From Chromatiales bacterium (GTDB lineage Bacteria > Pseudomonadota > Gammaproteobacteria > SZUA-152): a stretch of 33,984 nucleotides of DNA. Under the pieces are notes generated by a model. The model ran no database searches. It was not told the DNA's origin and was given only the letters and a program-made list of their open reading frames with translations. Of this stretch, positions 2,480 to 33,570 are shown piece after piece. The DNA lies in assembly GCA_026999335.1 (NCBI GenBank), contig JALTPW010000200.1, forward strand, positions 1 through 33,984, read 5' to 3'. The first letter of the stretch is position 1, and each line of letters opens with the position of its first letter. A program made the position numbers and the translations under genes.

Positions 2480-3145
2480 TCACCTCTGATCCAGCATGTC
2501 CGGTTGGTAACTCACCCCGGCCTTGCGCGCCATGCTCTGGATCAACTGCTCCAGGATCAGGCGCTGCTGCGGGTCCTCGCTCATCCGCTTTTCCTTGATG
2601 GCCGAGAGCAGTGCCCGCGCCGCCTGGATCTGGGCAGCCTGCGCCAGGCGCTCGTTGCGGCTCATGATCCCGCCGGCGGACTCGTACTGGTGCAGCACGT
2701 CGTCCCACTCCTCCTGCTTCTGCAGCAGGAAGTCCGCGCCGTCTACGTTGCCACCGGCGCGGACTTGTTCCGGGTTGATGGTGTTCAGATAGGCGGCCAC
2801 CCGGTCCAGGCGGATGGCCAGCATCTGGCGGGACTGGCCGGCGAAATTGAACTCCGCCAGGCAAACCCCGAGACGGCGTGCGAGATAGGGTAGTTTTGGC
2901 TGGTCTGCACCGGCATTGCCTGCAGATTCCGGGCCTTGTTCCGTCGGTTTCTCGGGATCTGCAGGGTACAAAGGTACCCCGCAGGTCTCGTCTTTTACGC
3001 CGAATTTCTTCTTTTGGCGGGACCACTGGAGCCCAAAGACATCAGAAATCGGCTTCAGCGGGACGATGTCCCGCCCCTGGGCGTCCTGCGTCACCGGCAG
3101 CATCACGCCGGCGAAATTCAGATTGAGGCTGACCTTGTGCATCAT
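2480..3145 (-). CDS. Phage antirepressor (P22_AR_N-like N-terminal domain)
   Basis: 221 aa from ATG 3145: GRDIVPLKPISDVFGLQWSRQKKKF...RLDRVAAYLNTINPEQV...WDDVLHQYE matches the P22_AR_N layout; ATGA overlap with the cro-like stop. Confidence 0.8.
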   Translation of the reverse strand: MMHKVSLNLNFAGVMLPVTQDAQGRDIVPLKPISDVFGLQWSRQKKKFGVKDETCGVPLYPADPEKPTEQGPESAGNAGADQPKLPYLARRLGVCLAEFNFAGQSRQMLAIRLDRVAAYLNTINPEQVRAGGNVDGADFLLQKQEEWDDVLHQYESAGGIMSRNERLAQAAQIQAARALLSAIKEKRMSEDPQQRLILEQLIQSMARKAGVSYQPDMLDQR

Positions 3146-3351
3146 GCGGCTTCTCCTTTTGGCTGGTGCTTGTACAGGTCCTCGAACGTGACCTGCCCCT
3201 GCGTAACCTCGACGATCTTGCGCGCATGCCGGGGTTCCGGGAACTTTTTCCCATATATCCACCTGTGGACGGTAGGCTGCTTCACACCGACCATTTGTGC
3301 GAAATCCGCCTGCGTCAGATTTTTCCTAGCAATGTATTCGTCGATCGTCAT
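3142..3351 (-). CDS. Cro-like HTH regulator (69 aa)
   Basis: MTIDEYIARKNLTQADFAQMVGVKQPTVHRWIYGKKFPEP HTH; divergent from the repressor; start 3351 is set by the promoter at 3359-3387. Confidence 0.85.
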   Translation of the reverse strand: MTIDEYIARKNLTQADFAQMVGVKQPTVHRWIYGKKFPEPRHARKIVEVTQGQVTFEDLYKHQPKGEAA

Positions 3352-3358
3352 TGTGGTA

Positions 3359-3387
3359 GATATACCTGATAGGAATACATGAGTCAA
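3359..3387 (-). promoter_or_regulatory. Cro-like gene promoter TTGACT-N17-TATATC
   Basis: -35 TTGACT (3387-3382), 17-nt spacer, -10 TATATC (3364-3359); ATG is 7 nt beyond the -10. Confidence 0.65.
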
Positions 3388-3427
3388 CCTATTAGGAACA
3401 TTAACCAAAATATACCCATCGGGTATA
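3361..3427. promoter_or_regulatory. Three-operator immunity region
   Basis: 17-bp dyads TATACCTGATAGGAATA (3361-3377), TCAACCTATTAGGAACA (3384-3400), TATACCCATCGGGTATA (3411-3427, perfect 7-bp arms). Confidence 0.75.
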
Positions 3428-3429
3428 AT
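3401..3429 (+). promoter_or_regulatory. Repressor promoter TTAACC-N17-TATAAT
   Basis: -35 TTAACC (3401-3406), 17-nt spacer, perfect -10 TATAAT (3424-3429); ATG at 3436. Confidence 0.75.
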
Positions 3430-3435
3430 CCTTCG

Positions 3436-3804
3436 ATGAGTATCAATGCTCGGATAAGGCGGGCTAGGATGGCAGCGGACATGACAAAATCGGATCTAGG
3501 ACGACAAGTAGGTGTAACGCCGGCCACCGCGATCCGATGGGAGCTGCCGCCTGAGCATCCGGACAGCAGAACACCGACAGTTGATAAGTTAGCGCTGATC
3601 GCACAGATCACCGGCGTCAGCTTCGAGTGGCTGGCCACCGGCCGCGGCGAGATGGCCGCGCCGGCCGGAGGCGGCACCACAGCGCCCCCCGTCTACAGCG
3701 ACGACCTCCTCCCCCTCACCGCAGACGAACGCCAGCTCCTGCGCCGCTTCCGCGCACTGCCACCCAAAAAACGCAAGGCGGTGATCGAATTGCTGAGGGA
3801 GTAG
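3436..3804 (+). CDS. XRE-family cI-like repressor, short (122 aa), no S24 peptidase domain
   Basis: MSINARIRRARMAADMTKSDLGRQVGVTPATAIRWE HTH; ORF ends without a LexA/S24-like C-terminus. Confidence 0.8.
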   Translation: MSINARIRRARMAADMTKSDLGRQVGVTPATAIRWELPPEHPDSRTPTVDKLALIAQITGVSFEWLATGRGEMAAPAGGGTTAPPVYSDDLLPLTADERQLLRRFRALPPKKRKAVIELLRE

Positions 3805-3806
3805 CC

Positions 3807-4622
3807 ATGACCAACGAGGAAATCGCCAACGACTGGCGCAGCCGTGCAATGTCAATCCTGCAGTGGGAGAGATGTCCTAACCAGGCTGGATTAGTGGAAG
3901 GAGAAGCTGGAGGATATTTCGTTCAGGCTGATGGGTTTCCCAGGCGCGGTTATCTGAAGCCCGTAAGACCTCATTCTGATGCCGCCACGGTGTCCCGGGC
4001 GGCGCGAGAGAAAATTGCCGCTGACCTCGCGCACGATTTGGGGTTGCCTGTGCCACCTGTGCAATTGGTGCAGCTTGACGATGCGCCGGATGGGTGCGAA
4101 AAAGCCGTTGCAGTCAGCTTGATCATGTACCCTGTTCAGCACTCGTGGAGTTTGATCAACCAGATTGATCTGAGCGAAAACCCCACTGGATTGGCCATTG
4201 CACGGGTGTTGTCTGAATGTTCACCGATGCTCGTTTTTGACACATGGGTCGATCAGACAGATCATGCCGATCATCCGCACAATATCGTGTGGGGATATGA
4301 CCGTAAGAACCTAAGTGACTCCAAGATCATATTCCTGGATTTTGCTTTTTCTATGGGATTCAGAGGCTCATGGGCAAATGGTGACTGGCGAAATATCAGG
4401 ATTGCTGGATTTCCAAGAAAGATGAAGGAAGTGCTTCGTCCTGACGATATCAGTAGCACGGTTCAGAAAATCTCCGACATGGACGATAGCAACATTTACG
4501 AGATCGTGACCAGGATTCCGCCAAGCCATCTTGATGACAGCCAAAAAGAAGTGATCATCGAAGGATTGTGTGGCAGAAAAACTCTTCTTCCTCATGTGTT
4601 TTCTAGTATAATGAATGGCTAA
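3807..4622 (+). CDS. HipA-like kinase (HipA_2-type) (271 aa)
   Basis: GYLKP lysine, LGLPVPPVQLVQLD, FDTWVDQTDHADHPHNIVWG catalytic-loop-like and IIFLDFAFSMG metal-loop-like motifs; ATG 2 nt after the repressor stop. Confidence 0.65.
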   Translation: MTNEEIANDWRSRAMSILQWERCPNQAGLVEGEAGGYFVQADGFPRRGYLKPVRPHSDAATVSRAAREKIAADLAHDLGLPVPPVQLVQLDDAPDGCEKAVAVSLIMYPVQHSWSLINQIDLSENPTGLAIARVLSECSPMLVFDTWVDQTDHADHPHNIVWGYDRKNLSDSKIIFLDFAFSMGFRGSWANGDWRNIRIAGFPRKMKEVLRPDDISSTVQKISDMDDSNIYEIVTRIPPSHLDDSQKEVIIEGLCGRKTLLPHVFSSIMNG

Positions 4623-4635
4623 CGTGGAGGGGGCG

Positions 4636-5154
4636 ATGCGCGTAAGATATCATTACGCTGTTTTGAGTTACTGTGGGGATTTGACGGATCCTGGAGCACC
4701 TTCAATTCCTGTGGGTGCCATTGCTATCGGTAATCTGTCTGAGAACACCGTATTCGTCTTGTCTATTACCAGAAGCGGTTCTATCGAAGACGCCATTCCT
4801 GACTTGCAAGATCCATTTTCAGCGCGGATTCTGAGCAGATTCCACTCTTTCGTAGAACACCAAATTGAGGATGGCCTTGTGCATTCTGGTGTGGACGGAT
4901 TTTTGCATTGGTTGCAGGAAAAACTGAGGAATACAATCCATATTTCTGCTATTCATCAACGTGAATGCGAGATCCCGGATATCGCGTCTGCGACACTACT
5001 ATTGTCACAGGAAGCAGACAGTGTATTCAAAGAGCGGCTTGCAACGACATGGCGTGAGTCCACAAAGGACATCAGCCTCAATGATTTCCCAGACATCCAC
5101 CTGTCGTATAAGGAACCTTCCCGTAGTCCGCGTCATGCGGTGGCTCATGGTTGA
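4636..5154 (+). CDS. Uncharacterised partner of the HipA-like kinase (172 aa)
   Basis: ORF 4615..5154; preferred start 4636 has GGAGG 5 nt upstream; RYHYAVLSYCGDL...PVGAIAIGN loosely resembles DUF3037-type partners. Confidence 0.6.
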   Translation: MRVRYHYAVLSYCGDLTDPGAPSIPVGAIAIGNLSENTVFVLSITRSGSIEDAIPDLQDPFSARILSRFHSFVEHQIEDGLVHSGVDGFLHWLQEKLRNTIHISAIHQRECEIPDIASATLLLSQEADSVFKERLATTWRESTKDISLNDFPDIHLSYKEPSRSPRHAVAHG

Positions 5155-5175: not shown

Positions 5176-5265
5176 CTATTCCCTGGTATGCCGCCCGACA
5201 GCGAACCCGAACACGGCACCGATCGTGAACGCCGTCAGCACGGCCTCTGCGAGCATCTCCATCAT
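5176..5265 (-). CDS. Small TM peptide (29 aa, MMEMLAEAVLTAFTIGAVFGFAVGRHTRE)
   Basis: Read by hand; start overlaps the holin stop (ATGA at 5262-5265); one hydrophobic helix. Confidence 0.5.
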   Translation of the reverse strand: MMEMLAEAVLTAFTIGAVFGFAVGRHTRE

Positions 5266-5810
5266 CGCCTGAGCACTCCCAGAAGTCCCGCCAACGGGCC
5301 TGGTTTCTGCATGCCCAGGCGGTTCTGCTGCTCACGGCGCAGCTCTCCGAAGTATTTGCCCAGCAGGCCCGCGGGCAGGGCAGTGAGGGAGGCGAATACC
5401 GTCCACAGGTAGGGCTGGTTCAGCGCCTCGATGCCGCCCTGGTAGACACCCCAGCCCAGCAGGCCGGCAAAGGCGACGGTCTCGAAGACGAACAGCCACG
5501 CCATCATCAGCGCGATCCGGGGCCGGGTGGACTGCCCGTCCGCCTCCGCCATGGCCTTGTAGCGCTCGGTCCAACCGCGCTCCTGCTCGATCTGCAAATC
5601 GATCTCGCGCTCCATCAGCGCCGCCCGCTGGTCTGCCGGCAAGGCGTCCACAGCAGACAGGATCTCCCCACCGGTGGCGGTGTCCGGCAAGCGCTTGTCC
5701 GGCGGCAACACGGCATTGACCGCGGCCAGGATGGCCGGGCCTCCAGGGATGAACGGCGCCGCCACCGCGGCCAGGGGCCGCAGGGATGCCAAGATCTTCT
5801 TCAGTTTCAT
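5262..5810 (-). CDS. Holin-like membrane protein (3TM / GTA-holin type)
   Basis: MKLKKILASLRPLAAVAAPFIPGGPAILAAVNAVLP...IALMMAWLFVFETVAFAGLLGWG...WTVFASLTALPAGLLGKYFGELR; start at ATG 5810. Confidence 0.75.
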   Translation of the reverse strand: MKLKKILASLRPLAAVAAPFIPGGPAILAAVNAVLPPDKRLPDTATGGEILSAVDALPADQRAALMEREIDLQIEQERGWTERYKAMAEADGQSTRPRIALMMAWLFVFETVAFAGLLGWGVYQGGIEALNQPYLWTVFASLTALPAGLLGKYFGELRREQQNRLGMQKPGPLAGLLGVLRR

Positions 5811-6061
5811 CGCCGCCACCTCGCACGCAGGTAGTGCTTGAGGATGGAGAGGTAGATCAGCCCCCAGGGCGGCAGGGCGCTGAGCACATGGGGCAGACCG
5901 ATGCGACCGCCGATCCTCGCCTTGATGAGGCTCTCGGGCAGCCCCAGACAACGCATGCCTTCAGCGAACAGATTGACCCAGGCATGTCCCTCGTAGTAAT
6001 CAGGGCTCCGGTCCCTCATCGCGTACCGGAACCGCCTCCAGTGTGGCGTCATGCAGTGCAT
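5807..6061 (-). CDS. Conserved-looking small phage protein (up to 84 aa)
   Basis: ORF upstream of the holin with ATGA overlap; start uncertain because it overlaps 6000..6365. Confidence 0.6.
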   Translation of the reverse strand: MHCMTPHWRRFRYAMRDRSPDYYEGHAWVNLFAEGMRCLGLPESLIKARIGGRIGLPHVLSALPPWGLIYLSILKHYLRARWRR

Positions 6062-23485: not shown

Positions 23486-23513
23486 TCAAGACATGACAAG
23501 GGCGCGGTTTGTC
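23486..23513. repeat. 28-bp dispersed motif, copy A TCAAGACATGACAAGGGCGCGGTTTGTC
   Basis: 24/28 identical to 31847-31874. Confidence 0.7.
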
Positions 23514-25381
23514 TAATGAAGATTTATATCCCTACGCAGCATCGCTTCGATCTCCTGGCTGGCGGACAGCAGCAGTTCGATATCATGATACGTAGCTGCC
23601 ACGATCACTCCGTCTGACTCGAACGGCACAGCAGCAGAGCCAGCTAACATTGACAGCGCCTCAATGGCGCTGATCCCGGAGCGCCCCATATGACGCAACG
23701 CATCGATAGGTGATCTCGATAGCCGATCGACCATAGCCTGCGACGCAATCCCTGTGCGTGACGATCGCCGTGCTGACTGAAGTGCCTCGATTGCTACTGC
23801 CACAGCAGTCGATACTGGTGTGGTAGCGATGCCGCGCACCTCGTAGCTGGTGCTCAATGCCCCAACGACACGAGCAACGGTCTCATAGGCTGCAATGGAT
23901 GCCTTGTTCGCACGAGTCAACGTCTCGATCTCTGAAGGCTTCGCCTGCAATAGCCGCATCGAGACTTCCATGCTGGATGACGTCGATACCAGCACAGGAC
24001 CAGTCGACTCCCAGCGTATGCTACCAGTCGCACCGATTTCAGCCAAGGCGCAGTACCATGACGATGCAGTAGCATCGATCATGGCTATTGACTCCATTCC
24101 ACATAAATGGGCAGAGAGAAGTGCTCTAGCGCACTCGAAACGTGAGATAGCTGCTGTTTTGATACCTTGTTGAGTTTCTACAGATGACGTGCGAGATGCA
24201 GATACTGTGTTACCTGCAGTCGGAGCAGCCCCAATAGCCAAGTACCCAAAGGTGCGGATGCTCGCTGAGACGGTATCCCAGTTTAGTGAAATAGTATCTG
24301 CTGCGAACCCAGTTATAGTTGCTCCGGTAATGACCCCATTAGAATAATCCTGGAAAGAAATAGATCTTGTGCCATCTCTCCATGATCTATCTGGATAGTT
24401 GTCTTGCTGCGACACGCTACCAACTGCAAAATTGGACGTAGCATCTGAGACGCCATAGAATTCACGATTAGGCTTTCCGTAATTACCGCTTACATTGTCG
24501 CGACCGTCGCCGGTGGTCAACACTGCGCTCGTAGTGAAACCGATGCCAGTGATGGAGTCGGCGCCAGCAGCAGTCGCAGTGTCCTTGGTACCAACCTTGC
24601 ACTGAGGACCTTTAATAGCGATGAAGCAGTGAGCTGCCTGTGTTGTACCACCTACTGTCTTGGTCAGATCAAATCCTGTTGACGTAAAGGCCGCGGTGAC
24701 TTCGTACAGAGTAGAAGTTACCGTGCCAGTAGTCCCTTCAGTTGGCATAGCATTGATTGCGCCCAACTTCCAACCACCACGATCTGCACTACCATCTGAC
24801 CGCTCTGAATGTCCCTCTGAATACTGTGTGGTACCGTCATAGAATCCGATAGAAATCGGCGGCTTGGACCGATCAGTACCAACCGGAGTTCCCACAATCC
24901 CAAACAGAATTAGGGCATCTGGTCGATAGCCCAAGTTCTGGGAATAAGTGCTTCCAGTAGGGAAATCAAATGACCCCACAGATGAGTTCGTTATGTCTGA
25001 CCCTCCGAGTGCGAGATAGTAAATCGTCTCTGATTTAGCGTGCGTCGTGAAATTTATATCAAACCCAGTATCCGTTAACTGATAGATCTGAGCAGCGAGC
25101 TCCACTCCAGTTACCATGTTGGCAAGATATATCGAGTAACCGGATATTACACCTCCAATTTTTCCCCAAATGTCCTCCCGGTTATCTTGGTGCACGACGC
25201 AGTCAGTCCCTGGACCAGTGCTTGCTCCATAGCAATAGCTCTCCTTTGTGTTGGCTGGATAATCCGAGTTCGCGTATTTACCCAACAGAATGACTAGCTT
25301 GGGTTTAAATCCGACGTTTATGCTATTGACGCCGGACGCGGAGGTGAAAGACCCTACTTTTACGTCGAGAGCCATACTCAA
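23513..25381 (-). CDS. Fiber/surface-like protein with three repeated domains and a helical C-terminus (622 aa)
   Basis: Repeated VGSFTSASGVNSINVGFKPKLVILLG / VGSFDFPTGSTYSQNLGYRPDALILFG / VGTKDTATAAGADSITGIGFTTSAVLTTG modules. Confidence 0.65.
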   Translation of the reverse strand: MSMALDVKVGSFTSASGVNSINVGFKPKLVILLGKYANSDYPANTKESYCYGASTGPGTDCVVHQDNREDIWGKIGGVISGYSIYLANMVTGVELAAQIYQLTDTGFDINFTTHAKSETIYYLALGGSDITNSSVGSFDFPTGSTYSQNLGYRPDALILFGIVGTPVGTDRSKPPISIGFYDGTTQYSEGHSERSDGSADRGGWKLGAINAMPTEGTTGTVTSTLYEVTAAFTSTGFDLTKTVGGTTQAAHCFIAIKGPQCKVGTKDTATAAGADSITGIGFTTSAVLTTGDGRDNVSGNYGKPNREFYGVSDATSNFAVGSVSQQDNYPDRSWRDGTRSISFQDYSNGVITGATITGFAADTISLNWDTVSASIRTFGYLAIGAAPTAGNTVSASRTSSVETQQGIKTAAISRFECARALLSAHLCGMESIAMIDATASSWYCALAEIGATGSIRWESTGPVLVSTSSSMEVSMRLLQAKPSEIETLTRANKASIAAYETVARVVGALSTSYEVRGIATTPVSTAVAVAIEALQSARRSSRTGIASQAMVDRLSRSPIDALRHMGRSGISAIEALSMLAGSAAVPFESDGVIVAATYHDIELLLSASQEIEAMLRRDINLH

Positions 25382-25797
25382 TCGACGGCGCCGGCATCGA
25401 GGTAAGCGCGGGCTTTTGTACGGATGTCATCGACAGTCAGCAGTGGCAATCCGACTTGCTGGCGGAGGGTATTGACCTCATCCAAAGTAACAAGAGTAAT
25501 GACCCTAAGCATCTTTCCCCATGTGCTGCGGTCGGTGTTGAACAGATCTGCGACCTGTTCACGCTGTAACAAGTTGTCATCATCCTGTGCGGCTGTCTGA
25601 AATGTAGAGATCTCCGACTGTGTGGCTTTTCTGACCTGTGTCCCATCCCAGATCAGCGGTTGTGAGAGGTCAGCTCCAGGTTCGATGGCAGGATTGTCCA
25701 ATACCGAGAAAAATCGTGTATCAATATCTGGCCATGGGTCTGTATCGATGCTCTGGGAGACGATTTCACCGCTACTCAATCTGTACAAGAATTTCAT
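25378..25797 (-). CDS. Hypothetical, tail-fiber-associated protein (139 aa)
   Basis: ORF overlapping the start of the fiber-like gene. Confidence 0.5.
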   Translation of the reverse strand: MKFLYRLSSGEIVSQSIDTDPWPDIDTRFFSVLDNPAIEPGADLSQPLIWDGTQVRKATQSEISTFQTAAQDDDNLLQREQVADLFNTDRSTWGKMLRVITLVTLDEVNTLRQQVGLPLLTVDDIRTKARAYLDAGAVD

Positions 25798-25806
25798 TGG
25801 AGTGCC

Positions 25807-25971
25807 TCATAACATTGTCAGTCCAGGAATCGTGACCCACCGTTTACAACGTGTGCATTTTACCTCTGCTGATGTACCAGATAGGCGTAACACTCTGCAT
25901 CTGACTACGGACCCGTCAAATATGCGAAATCCGCATCGACATACGACTCTTTTGCTATTTCTCTCTGGCAT
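25807..25971 (-). CDS. Com-like zinc-binding small protein (54 aa)
   Basis: MPERNSKRVVCRCGFRIFDGSVVRCRVLRLSGTSAEVKCTRCKRWVTIPGLTML resembles Mu Com (RCKNCNKLLF...IEIRCPRCKRHI). Confidence 0.6.
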   Translation of the reverse strand: MPERNSKRVVCRCGFRIFDGSVVRCRVLRLSGTSAEVKCTRCKRWVTIPGLTML

Positions 25972-26113
25972 TGTCTTCACCATCTTCAATCTCGATGATG
26001 TCCCCGGTGGTTTCACCTGCCTCGATCGCGACCGCGAACTCCGCTTGCTGCCGTGACATATTGGCCACGCGCATAAGCTCTTTGATACGTTGCTCTTTCT
26101 CTTCGTCGCTCAT
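25955..26113 (-). CDS. Acidic small protein (52 aa, MSDEEKEQRIKELMRVANMSRQQAEFAVAIEAGETTGDIIEIEDGEDNAREK)
   Basis: Read by hand, absent from the ORF track; ATGA overlap with the MuF-peptidase stop. Confidence 0.6.
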   Translation of the reverse strand: MSDEEKEQRIKELMRVANMSRQQAEFAVAIEAGETTGDIIEIEDGEDNAREK

Positions 26114-27918
26114 AGCCATTTCATTTTCCTCATGATGTTCTCGATCTCTTCGGCGACCTTAGAAAATCCCTCTGGATCCCATTGCGTTGGATAAGATATG
26201 AGGGCACTTTCCTGGTTGGCTAAAATTTCCTGTAGCTGTTCCTCAATGACGGCATCCCCGGCTCGCGCAGTAATCCATTGGGCATAGCTCCGCGCCCATG
26301 CCTCCTCGTAGCTCAATAGATATTTGACGTATGCCTTGTCAACGTAATGTACCGTCCCGTCAGCTAATTTCAAGGTAGATGGCCCTTGTAGCAGTGCACG
26401 CAGGTGCTGCATTTCGGCAGTGTTGTCCACAGCATTCCGCCATCCCCTGAACAAATCATGATATGTTGAGGAGAACCCTTTACCTGGGGCGGCCTTGTGA
26501 TCTATGAAATGTCCGACCTCATGCAGCAGCGTCAGTTCTTTGTGGTCGCCTCCAGCCCTGATACTGATGTGGGATGGCTCTCCGGTGAATTTCCTGTAGT
26601 AGTATGCGCCCAGATAATTTGCATTGTGCGGGCTGCTCTTTATCGGGATCACCGGCAAATTACCGTCACCGTGCACGCTGTCTATCGCCTGTAGTGCCCG
26701 TTGAGATTCAGTTTTGTGTGCCATGACCTTCAGGGCTGCCGAAACTGGTGCTTGAGGCGCCGTTTTCCCTGTAGTCGGAACAGTTTGTGATGACGGCCTG
26801 GCAGGCTCGATGTCTGAGACCACGAGTGCATCGACGTCGATTCCTCTCCGGGTATACCGCTTTTTGAGCACGCGCCATGGCGTGCCGATCTCGCTTTCAC
26901 GGAGAATCCCTCTGACCAGCGCGGCGCGCTTCTTTCTCGAACCCAACACGGCTTCCTGAATGGCCGGGCGCTGCTGCTTGAGCCATGTGATCCGATCTGT
27001 TTTCCCGGCCCTGTCCTCTTCGGTGATTTCATCGGCGAAGACCACCTCCTCGTAACTGAGCGTGTTGGGATGTGCCGGCCAGGGTGACTTCCCCTTCGGA
27101 TAGACGCCGGGCCCGAGCCCGTATCGGTTGACTCTGGCGTGCATGTCGCAGATATCCGGCTCGGGGTGCCTGGGGCTGAGCAGGAAGCGCGTGCCGACGA
27201 CGTCGGGATGCTTGAATGCCGCGGCCCGATAGGCCTCACCATGGGCACGGTTCAGTTCGGTCCGGAATAACCGCAGGGCATGGACTCTCGGGTTGTCGTC
27301 AGAGATCAGGAGCGCCGATGCGGCGGATGCGCCGACGGCGCCGGCGTTGGCGGCGTTGATTTTGCCTGTAATGCCGGCGGGCACCGGCCGTCCCGCGGCC
27401 AGGAATTCATTGGCCGCCTGGCTGGCGGAGTGGCCCTCGATGATGGCGCTCTCAACGGCGCGGCGCACGCCATCGATGGCCCCCCGGTCCAGGCGCCAGA
27501 GTCTGTCCGAGAGCTGCAGGCCGTCCTTGTCAATGAAGTTCTTGACGAAGCGCACCGCCTCGTCAGACAGGCCGGAGAGCAGGCCTGAAACTTCTGGTGC
27601 AGCAGAGAACGGCTCCACGCCTAGCCTTGCGGCGGCGCGCAGGCCACGGTCTAGCATTTGGTTGCGTCGGTCTGCAAGATCGCGCAAACGCAGGTCGATT
27701 TGGACCTGCAGCCGTTGCAAGACCTCGAGGCGCAGCAAACCCTGGCCGCCTGCGAAATCCTGGATGACGGATTTGATGCGCTCTGCAGCGTCCCGGTAGA
27801 GGCGGTCTAACGCCTCCAGGTAGTCCCGGTCCAGGCGGTTCATGTCCGCACGAGCCCTGGCGGAGGCACGTTTGATCGCAGCCTTGACCGACGTTCTTTT
27901 GTTCTCCGCCAGGCGCAC
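26110..27918 (-). CDS. MuF-type head morphogenesis protein fused to a C-terminal zincin-like metallopeptidase domain
   Basis: N-terminal MuF region (LFRTELNRAHGEAYRAAAFKHPDVVGTRFLLSPRHPEPDICDMHA) plus LLHEVGHFIDH and YEEAWARSYAQWI. Confidence 0.8.
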   Translation of the reverse strand: MRLAENKRTSVKAAIKRASARARADMNRLDRDYLEALDRLYRDAAERIKSVIQDFAGGQGLLRLEVLQRLQVQIDLRLRDLADRRNQMLDRGLRAAARLGVEPFSAAPEVSGLLSGLSDEAVRFVKNFIDKDGLQLSDRLWRLDRGAIDGVRRAVESAIIEGHSASQAANEFLAAGRPVPAGITGKINAANAGAVGASAASALLISDDNPRVHALRLFRTELNRAHGEAYRAAAFKHPDVVGTRFLLSPRHPEPDICDMHARVNRYGLGPGVYPKGKSPWPAHPNTLSYEEVVFADEITEEDRAGKTDRITWLKQQRPAIQEAVLGSRKKRAALVRGILRESEIGTPWRVLKKRYTRRGIDVDALVVSDIEPARPSSQTVPTTGKTAPQAPVSAALKVMAHKTESQRALQAIDSVHGDGNLPVIPIKSSPHNANYLGAYYYRKFTGEPSHISIRAGGDHKELTLLHEVGHFIDHKAAPGKGFSSTYHDLFRGWRNAVDNTAEMQHLRALLQGPSTLKLADGTVHYVDKAYVKYLLSYEEAWARSYAQWITARAGDAVIEEQLQEILANQESALISYPTQWDPEGFSKVAEEIENIMRKMKWL

Positions 27919-31947: not shown

Positions 31948-33570
31948 ATGACCGCAAAGAGAGCAGTTATTTATGCGAGAGTCAGCACGTCTAGGCAGGC
32001 AGATGACGATGTATCCATCCCGGCACAGATCGAGCGAGGTAGAGAGAGGGCTGCTGAACTAGACGCAGACGTGGTGAGGGTGTTTTGTGACGAGGGGTTG
32101 ACAGGCACAGATGATAGGAGACCAGCGTTCCAAGATGCCATCGCGTTCTGCGAGCTGTACTCTCCAGACTTCTTCATCACATGGTCCACCAGCAGATTCT
32201 CACGTAACAAGATTGATGCAGCTCTCTATAAATTGCGTCTGGACAGATGTGGCACCAGTATCGTCTATCTGTGCACACCTATCGACAGAGACACAGACAG
32301 TGGTTGGATGCTGGAGAGCATGCTGGAGGTGTTCGACGAGTATTACAGCAGGCAGATCGCTGCTGATACAAAGCGGTCCATGATCAAAAATGCCAGGGAA
32401 GGGTACTGGAATGGTGGCTCACCACCGTATGGCTATCGCCCTGCGCCAGCTGCAGACAATCCTAGAAGAAAGCGGCTCAAAATATATCCGCCCGAGGCAG
32501 AGGTGGTCGAGTGGATATTCAACATGCGCCTCGCAGGACAAGGTGCCAAAGCTATTGCTACATCACTTAATCGAAGAGGAATTACCCACAGAGGACGCCC
32601 GTGGCAAAAAGGGGCAGTTCTGCACATCCTGCGTAGTGAGTCCTATCTCGGTCATGTGATCTTCAACCGGAGGGACAGGAAGACCATGCGCGACAGAGAT
32701 AGGAAGGACTGGATCGTAGTACAGAGTCATGACCCGATTATCCCGATCGAAACCTGGCGCTCGGTGCAAGAGATGTTGGACACTGAGTACCCCGCCCGTG
32801 ATACTGGCTCACATGCCAGCCGTTTCCTGTTCACCGGCCTGCTGCGTTGCGGCCGGTGCGGCGCCAGTCTCCAGATCGAGAGCGCCAAGGGCAGATCCCG
32901 TCGCTACCATTATTACAACTGCAGGACCGCTCAGCAGAAGGGTAGATGCACAAACCGGCGTATTCCAGCACACGACCTCGATGACTGGTTACTGGATCAA
33001 TTACTGGATCAGATCCTGAATGCAAAGACTGTGGCCAATCTGTACTTGCAGCTGGCACAGGTGTGTAGTGGATGGAAGAAAGACCAGCAACGACGCCGAC
33101 AGGCAGTCCTATCCGAAATCCGGGTGATAGAGCAAAAAACCAGAAAAATCTATGAGTTATTTGAGGAATATGGCAAGGATACGCCAAACCTGGGCGATTT
33201 CACCAGGAGATTGAGAGAACACAACAGTCGCCTCAAAAGCCTAGAGCAACAGCTTGCTGCAATAGAGTCGGAGGTCCCACCGGAAATGCCCATTGACGAA
33301 AACCAGGTGATGCAGCTGGTCTACTTCCTGATCGACACGATAAAGTCTTCTGAAAATGTCAAGAAAACCAGAGGGTTACTGTCAAGATTCATAACAGAGA
33401 TCGTAATTACCGACGATCATGCACGAGTGAAATACGACAATCGCGCCCTGATCGAACTGACTGCCAGGGGTGCGGTTCCCAGTAAGGAATGGTGGCTCCC
33501 CGCACATTCCATACCAGGAACCGAGATTCTAACATTATTTCTGCCTCAGCGATTTTGCGCGGCTGCGTGA
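31948..33570 (+). CDS. int: Large serine recombinase / integrase (540 aa)
   Basis: AVIYARVSTSRQADDDVSIPAQIERG catalytic region, STSRFSRNKIDAA, recombinase domain (NAREGYWNGGSPPYGYR), zinc ribbon CGRCGASL...CRTAQQKGRC, coiled coil. Confidence 0.97.
   Translation: MTAKRAVIYARVSTSRQADDDVSIPAQIERGRERAAELDADVVRVFCDEGLTGTDDRRPAFQDAIAFCELYSPDFFITWSTSRFSRNKIDAALYKLRLDRCGTSIVYLCTPIDRDTDSGWMLESMLEVFDEYYSRQIAADTKRSMIKNAREGYWNGGSPPYGYRPAPAADNPRRKRLKIYPPEAEVVEWIFNMRLAGQGAKAIATSLNRRGITHRGRPWQKGAVLHILRSESYLGHVIFNRRDRKTMRDRDRKDWIVVQSHDPIIPIETWRSVQEMLDTEYPARDTGSHASRFLFTGLLRCGRCGASLQIESAKGRSRRYHYYNCRTAQQKGRCTNRRIPAHDLDDWLLDQLLDQILNAKTVANLYLQLAQVCSGWKKDQQRRRQAVLSEIRVIEQKTRKIYELFEEYGKDTPNLGDFTRRLREHNSRLKSLEQQLAAIESEVPPEMPIDENQVMQLVYFLIDTIKSSENVKKTRGLLSRFITEIVITDDHARVKYDNRALIELTARGAVPSKEWWLPAHSIPGTEILTLFLPQRFCAAA

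Follow-up and report, generated by a model that had tools for sequence, protein, structure and literature searches.

A divergent HipA_2-type kinase and its conserved partner directly behind a prophage repressor

In bacteriophage lambda the two genes directly after the repressor, rexAB, are expressed in the lysogen and exclude other phages. What, then, is encoded by two genes (ORF1 and ORF2) that lie in the same place, directly behind a short cI-like repressor, in the DNA analysed here? The window is a whole contig of 33,984 bases (C200) from a metagenome-like assembly of 1,068 contigs, and it carries phage genes for head, tail and lysis functions, a CII-like protein and a large serine recombinase. 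A preliminary description, made from the sequence alone, had proposed that ORF1 is a HipA-like kinase and that the pair is a lysogen-expressed exclusion or toxin module. Below we examine the gene order, both proteins and their relatives, and then weigh what the pair may do.

Gene order at the lysis-lysogeny switch

The features on which the argument depends are the following (positions are those of the window).

3142-3351, minus strand: Cro/YdaS-like HTH regulator (Pfam YdaS_toxin 1.3e-8, HTH_3 5.5e-8; PHROG transcriptional repressor 1.1e-12)
3359-3387, minus strand: probable PR-like promoter, TTGACT-17-TATATC, read by eye; points to the Cro-like gene
3361-3377, no strand: operator-like site 1, TATACCTGATAGGAATA (repeat scan and sequence)
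3384-3400, no strand: operator-like site 2, TCAACCTATTAGGAACA, a direct repeat of site 1
3401-3429, plus strand: probable repressor promoter, TTAACC-17-TATAAT (promoter scan, 10/12 matches; a single consensus match, not proof)
3411-3427, no strand: operator-like site 3, palindrome TATACCCATCGGGTATA, an inverted repeat within the repressor promoter
3436-3804, plus strand: short cI-like repressor, HTH only, 122 aa (HTH_3 4.7e-8, Phage_CI_repr 1.5e-4, PHROG transcriptional repressor 4e-14)
3795-3801, plus strand: kinase ribosome binding site GAGGGAG (sequence), inside the end of the repressor gene
3807-4622, plus strand: ORF1, HipA_2-type kinase, 271 aa, proposed toxin (PF20613, hhalign, tree)
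4626-4633, plus strand: partner ribosome binding site GGAGGGGG (sequence)
4636-5154, plus strand: ORF2, partner, 172 aa, probable divergent DUF3037 (HipD-like) protein, proposed antitoxin (family conservation, hhalign)
31948-33570, plus strand: large serine recombinase (integrase; PHROG 95, E 9e-116), far from the switch region, at the other end of the contig

The Cro-like gene is divergent from the repressor operon and marks the early lytic side. The PR-like promoter in front of it is missed by the consensus scan because the sixth base of its -10 element is C. On the other side, the -10 element of the repressor promoter ends 7 nt before the ATG at 3436, so that the repressor mRNA would be leaderless or nearly so. 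The three 17-base operator-like sites and two facing promoter-like sequences (3340-3440) resemble the lambda right operator arrangement, and both promoter-like sequences would give leaderless or nearly leaderless mRNAs, for the repressor and for the Cro-like protein. An antirepressor-like gene with a P22_AR N-terminal domain (E 1e-11; 2480-3145, minus strand) adjoins the Cro-like gene.

As the preliminary description had read it, ORF1 begins with an ATG at 3807 after a gap of two nucleotides (CC) from the repressor stop codon (TAG, 3802-3804), and ORF2 (ATG at 4636) is preceded by the clean ribosome site listed above. ORF1 stops with TAA at 4622, leaving 13 nt before ORF2, which stops with TGA at 5154. 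The promoter scan called no promoter between the repressor and the kinase. From the 2-nt and 13-nt gaps, the overlapping ribosome sites and this result we infer that repressor, kinase and partner form one operon; the pair is thus probably expressed together with the repressor, and both proteins would be made in the lysogen.

The pair is also AT-rich, as first noticed: its GC content is 0.50 (kinase) and 0.48 (ORF2) against 0.59 for the contig, which places it within the lowest 1.5% of equal-size segments of the contig. A stretch of structural genes at 23513-26500 is equally AT-rich (GC 0.48-0.52) and may hold genes for tail fibres or receptor binding that were acquired recently. Near the lysis and tail genes, an unassigned protein with hydrophobic stretches (5262-5855, minus strand), without a PHROG match, is possibly a holin.

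The kinase and its partner protein

The four motifs that had suggested a kinase (GYLKP, LGLPVPP, DQTDHADHPHN and LDFAF) are all found in ORF1, in the order claimed. The Pfam model PF20613 matched ORF1 at 3.6e-6 and 26.8 bits (27 with neighbours) against a cut-off of 27. Comparison of profiles agreed with the HipA-like assignment: a kinase profile built from 12 clade members aligned by hhalign with HipA_2 at 97.5% (E 8.7e-12, score 86.0), while the maximum score among 40 block-shuffled versions was 33.7. The catalytic K, E, D, N and D are present, the proposed active-site residues being K51 (YLKP), E68, D152, N159 and D178 (LDFA). K51, N159 and E68 are invariant among seven aligned close members, and the position of D152, which corresponds to the Asp in the DR motif, holds Asp in 10/12 aligned members (T in L051, E in L061). 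The usual Arg of that motif is replaced by H153, giving DH; the closer members share this His, and the canonical form, NTDR or NADR, is found in the Myxococcota intermediates L076-L078. The first four sequences had pointed to D155 as the catalytic residue, but it is absent in L060 and L074, and the role was given to D152 instead. In the tree, ten clade kinases fall on one branch (97/94), with the window kinase and that of L050 as sisters (100/99). The AlphaFold2 model of the kinase (pLDDT 40.9) was too poor to use, and the claim of a kinase fold therefore rests on sequence; as judged from these alignments, ORF1 is a divergent HipA_2-type kinase.

ORF2 matched no named family in Pfam, NCBIfam, PADLOC or PHROGs, which bears out the initial remark that no family could be named firmly for the partner. 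Its relatives keep a core, Y..A..S.C.DLTDP...S.P and LRN[ST][IL]H, followed by a variable C-terminal tail; across the first seven members 16 positions are invariant, including those of the first motif. A seven-sequence partner profile aligned over residues 1-112 with DUF3037 from HipA_2 operons at 57-66% (E ~1e-4, score 36-38; 60 to 100 block-shuffled versions reached 28-32 and an unrelated profile 13.6), and a 13-sequence profile scored 37.2 (E 8.8e-5) against a wider DUF3037 set, with a control maximum of 25.5. Against an 18-sequence DUF3037 set the 13-sequence profile scored 27.7, inside the shuffle range (29.5), so that the score exceeded the block-shuffled maxima (25-32) in 3/4 profile comparisons. 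In the Myxococcota intermediates the partners carry F[IV][DE][YF]R.DP..P....RI.LG (also given as F.DYRPDP..PEK.RI.LG), which is closer to DUF3037 (YAIVRFLPYMETGEFANIGVLAF in L007). ORF2 is thus probably a very divergent, short DUF3037 protein, the hhalign value of about 60% being suggestive only.

The structure model of the partner, a weak one (pLDDT 58.6), has the order beta-beta-beta-alpha-alpha-alpha-beta and gave no significant match in the PDB. Foldseek returned one viral match, a 114-aa protein of Caulobacter phage CcrPW (A0A385ECM2, locus L071; E 7e-4). A check of the CcrPW genome for DUF3037 gave no recognisable match, and the Foldseek result therefore says nothing for the DUF3037 reading.

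Relatives of the pair and its place behind repressors

A scan of the genome collection found three kinase relatives (66, 44 and 46% identity), and further searches added members from Myxococcota. We inspected twelve relatives, ranging from an alphaproteobacterial prophage to Myxococcota (L050, L051, L052, L059-L061, L073, L074, L076-L079), and in 12/12 an ORF2 homologue lies directly downstream of the kinase. The preliminary description had named the absence of the partner beside the kinase elsewhere as a main observation that would speak against the proposal; with the partner next to the kinase in all twelve, that objection falls away. Identity across relatives ranges from 67 to 36% for the kinase and from 44 to 23% for the partner. 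Between the window and L050, synonymous change in the two genes is saturated (pS 0.81 and 0.87), and pN is 0.25 and 0.40. Since relatives conserve both frames and pN lies far below the saturated pS, both are real genes.

L050 also answers the call to look for the pair in other prophages, because this alphaproteobacterial prophage has the same kinase and partner. The pair is the only similarity between the window and L050; in L050 it follows a Peptidase-S24 repressor, and a gene for a tyrosine integrase is close by. Two repressors of unrelated type, HTH-only in the window and S24 in L050, thus each came to have the pair behind them. The Myxococcota members lie on GC-rich chromosomal contigs with no obvious prophage or repressor neighbour (neighbours were annotated in little depth), and on one myxobacterial contig HicB-like and other toxin-antitoxin-like genes are found near the pair. 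In L051 (3320-3496) and L052 (1-1020) the kinase is frameshifted and the partner looks intact, and L056 holds a kinase fragment, perhaps through decay of the toxin or assembly errors.

Searches of phages and plasmids by single-protein tblastn with either protein, and scans of viral contigs with four queries from the window's clade, returned no relatives, so that at this sensitivity the clade is rare among sequenced viruses. A match within the same genus (L002) lies in a glycine-cleavage operon and was set aside as a chance match. The size of the clade is a lower bound, as the profile search covered ~2,000 genomes and the scan of 85,000 species relied on exact 8-mers.

The family to which the pair appears to belong reportedly received the name HipAD in a 2025 paper by Brenes and Laub. 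In its canonical form a HipA_2 kinase and a DUF3037 protein make up the antiphage toxin-antitoxin system HipAD (DS-6; PADLOC candidate PDC-M66) (PMC12548924, PMC13092281). HipA_2 kinases elsewhere have a DUF3037 gene directly downstream in nearly every locus examined, including 78 of the best 80 viral loci. These loci come from a scan of viral contigs with canonical HipA, which found 147 relatives; the 80 best of them were retained (L084-L163). Among the best 80 of the 147, a repressor ends within 450 nt upstream (<=450 nt, median 136 nt) on the same strand in 66; a repressor is so placed for 44/474 other ORFs in the same loci. At 70% identity the repressors of the 66 repressor-adjacent loci form 23 clusters, and the best 80 kinases of the 147 form 14. 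The viral contigs show redundancy and probably include too large a share from enterobacteria, and phage sequences seeded the scan; 66/80 is therefore not a population estimate. The repressor-adjacent position of the pair is not accidental. The best 80 viral HipAD loci also form a data set for lysogeny-linked defence.

Annotated phages illustrate this position. In the lambdoid Escherichia phage PhiR5_1 (PV340545) the annotation reads integrase-excisionase-...-exonuclease-Bet-Gam-Kil-HipD-HipA-cI, with Cro-cII-O-P on the other side; HipA, annotated as a toxin, is PF20613, and HipD, annotated as an antitoxin, is PF11236. Klebsiella phage Kp4864-1 has an S24 cI, HipA and HipD consecutively, and Salmonella phage SW-37 an HTH-only repressor, a truncated HipA and HipD. 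The comparison with the position of lambda rexAB, drawn at first from the window, is thereby strengthened: PhiR5_1 carries HipA and HipD between cI and kil-gam-bet-exo.

Proposed function, alternatives and known systems

Two sets of experiments on canonical pairs bear on function. In Retron-Sda1, deletion of the kinase removed defence against Bas51, deletion of DUF3037 was toxic, and the retron was not needed (PMC12548924); in DS-6, defence is lost when DS-6A carries a catalytic mutation (PMC13092281). By homology with these deletion and mutation experiments, we infer for the window pair a toxin role, an antitoxin role and phage defence. We consider it likely that the pair is a divergent, prophage-borne module of the HipAD type, expressed in the lysogen from the repressor operon, in which a kinase toxin is held by a restraining partner and released by an infecting phage. 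The HipA_2-type kinase would be the toxic effector, and the DUF3037-like partner would bind and restrain it. Infection by another phage would lift this restraint, the freed kinase would phosphorylate a target that the cell cannot do without, probably one in translation as with HipA and HipT, and the infected cell would be arrested before making phage. By analogy, a cell that carries the prophage would probably be shielded by the pair from other viruses.

Stabilisation is a classical role of kinase-antitoxin pairs, and the window pair might instead serve mainly to retain the prophage (addiction) or to slow growth, with phage defence absent or incidental; the myxobacterial copies without an obvious prophage, one of them near other toxin-antitoxin-like genes, would suit such a role. 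This is unlikely, however, as an integrated prophage needs addiction little, the slot after cI is the exclusion slot of rexAB, and canonical HipAD confers protection from phage (PMC12548924, PMC13092281). The kinase could also work on regulators of the host or on the switch of its own prophage, and so adjust lysogeny or host physiology instead of keeping phages out; the pair's conserved place beside the repressor, and its translational coupling to that gene, would fit this. The pair, however, accompanies unrelated repressors in the window and L050, and none is obvious beside the Myxococcota copies, which argues that the repressor is not the specific substrate of the kinase and makes this explanation improbable.

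It is very improbable that the clade consists of pseudokinases or of a decaying, inactive module. The atypical DH loop, the frameshifted kinases of L051 and L052, the fragment in L056 and the poor structure model would fit such decay, but K51, N159 and E68 are invariant in seven close members, D152 is kept in 10/12, and both genes are under purifying selection between the window and L050. Still harder to credit is a unit like HipBA or HipBST, in which the short HTH repressor directly upstream would be a HipB-like antitoxin and ORF2 an accessory: the HipB model does match the repressor, very weakly (E 0.094, 12.7 bits), but this is far under the cut-off of 79, and the protein, encoded next to operators and a Cro-like gene, has the look of a phage repressor. 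Moreover, ORF2 is conserved with the kinase and the repressor is not, L050 having S24 instead.

A bolder proposal, to which we give an outside chance, is that the clade is a separate phage-lysogen weapon. Its DH...HPHN loop and short partner would then imply another target or phosphotransfer chemistry and another way of restraining the kinase, and the cassette would have been captured into repressor operons from a myxobacterial chromosomal lineage.

If the favoured reading, a HipAD-type module deployed from the repressor operon, is right, HipAD, whose validation in E. coli and in a retron host is recent, extends to a new clade. What is new here is this unrecognised clade of a known type of defence pair, with its DH catalytic loop and short partner, together with the count of repressor adjacency. 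The clade escapes the present Pfam, NCBIfam and PADLOC models, so that genome annotation would miss it. The repressor-adjacent slot, classically that of rexAB, is on this count the usual home of HipAD in viral contigs (66 of the best 80), which makes testable the idea that prophages in general turn kinase toxins on rival phages through expression tied to lysogeny. The intermediates, whose DR loops are canonical, offer a handle on which residues changed.

Among known systems, HipBA and HipBST share with the window pair a HipA-like kinase toxin (a toxin here by analogy), but no HipB or HipS homologue is conserved with the window kinase, and its partner lies downstream and belongs to another family. 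PDC-M03A is the best PADLOC model for the window kinase (1.5e-6), covering only the C-terminal 54 aa; membership of PDC-M03 was rejected, as true PDC-M03A loci have a different downstream partner, of HIRAN-like look, and not ORF2. The PDC-M03A kinases of L025, L026, L030 and L031 have a conserved partner that resembles a HIRAN-domain protein. With lambda rexAB the pair shares its place as the repressor-distal genes of a cI operon, with a 2-nt gap and no promoter called between, but it has a kinase where rexAB has a DNA-sensing protein and a membrane channel, and no Rex family was found among the Pfam or PHROG matches. The HipA/DUF3037 pair of Retron-Sda1 is likewise a two-gene unit of kinase and DUF3037, although it sits with the retron RT and ncRNA and its DUF3037 is canonical.

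From canonical HipAD the window pair differs in a kinase at or below the Pfam and PADLOC cut-offs, with DH instead of DR and an HPHN loop, and in a partner of 172 aa that has no Pfam DUF3037 match and is without the long C-terminal half of canonical HipD. The PDC-M66 models reflect this distance: on the window pair M66A gave E 0.021 and M66B no match, whereas the canonical PhiR5_1 proteins match at 6e-15 and 4e-16. The two nevertheless agree in the order of kinase then partner, the kinase superfamily, the catalytic residues and the site behind a temperate-phage repressor, and, if the suggestive profile match is right, in a partner of DUF3037 type; judged by sequence, this HipAD-like clade is a separate one (97/94) that occupies the rexAB slot.
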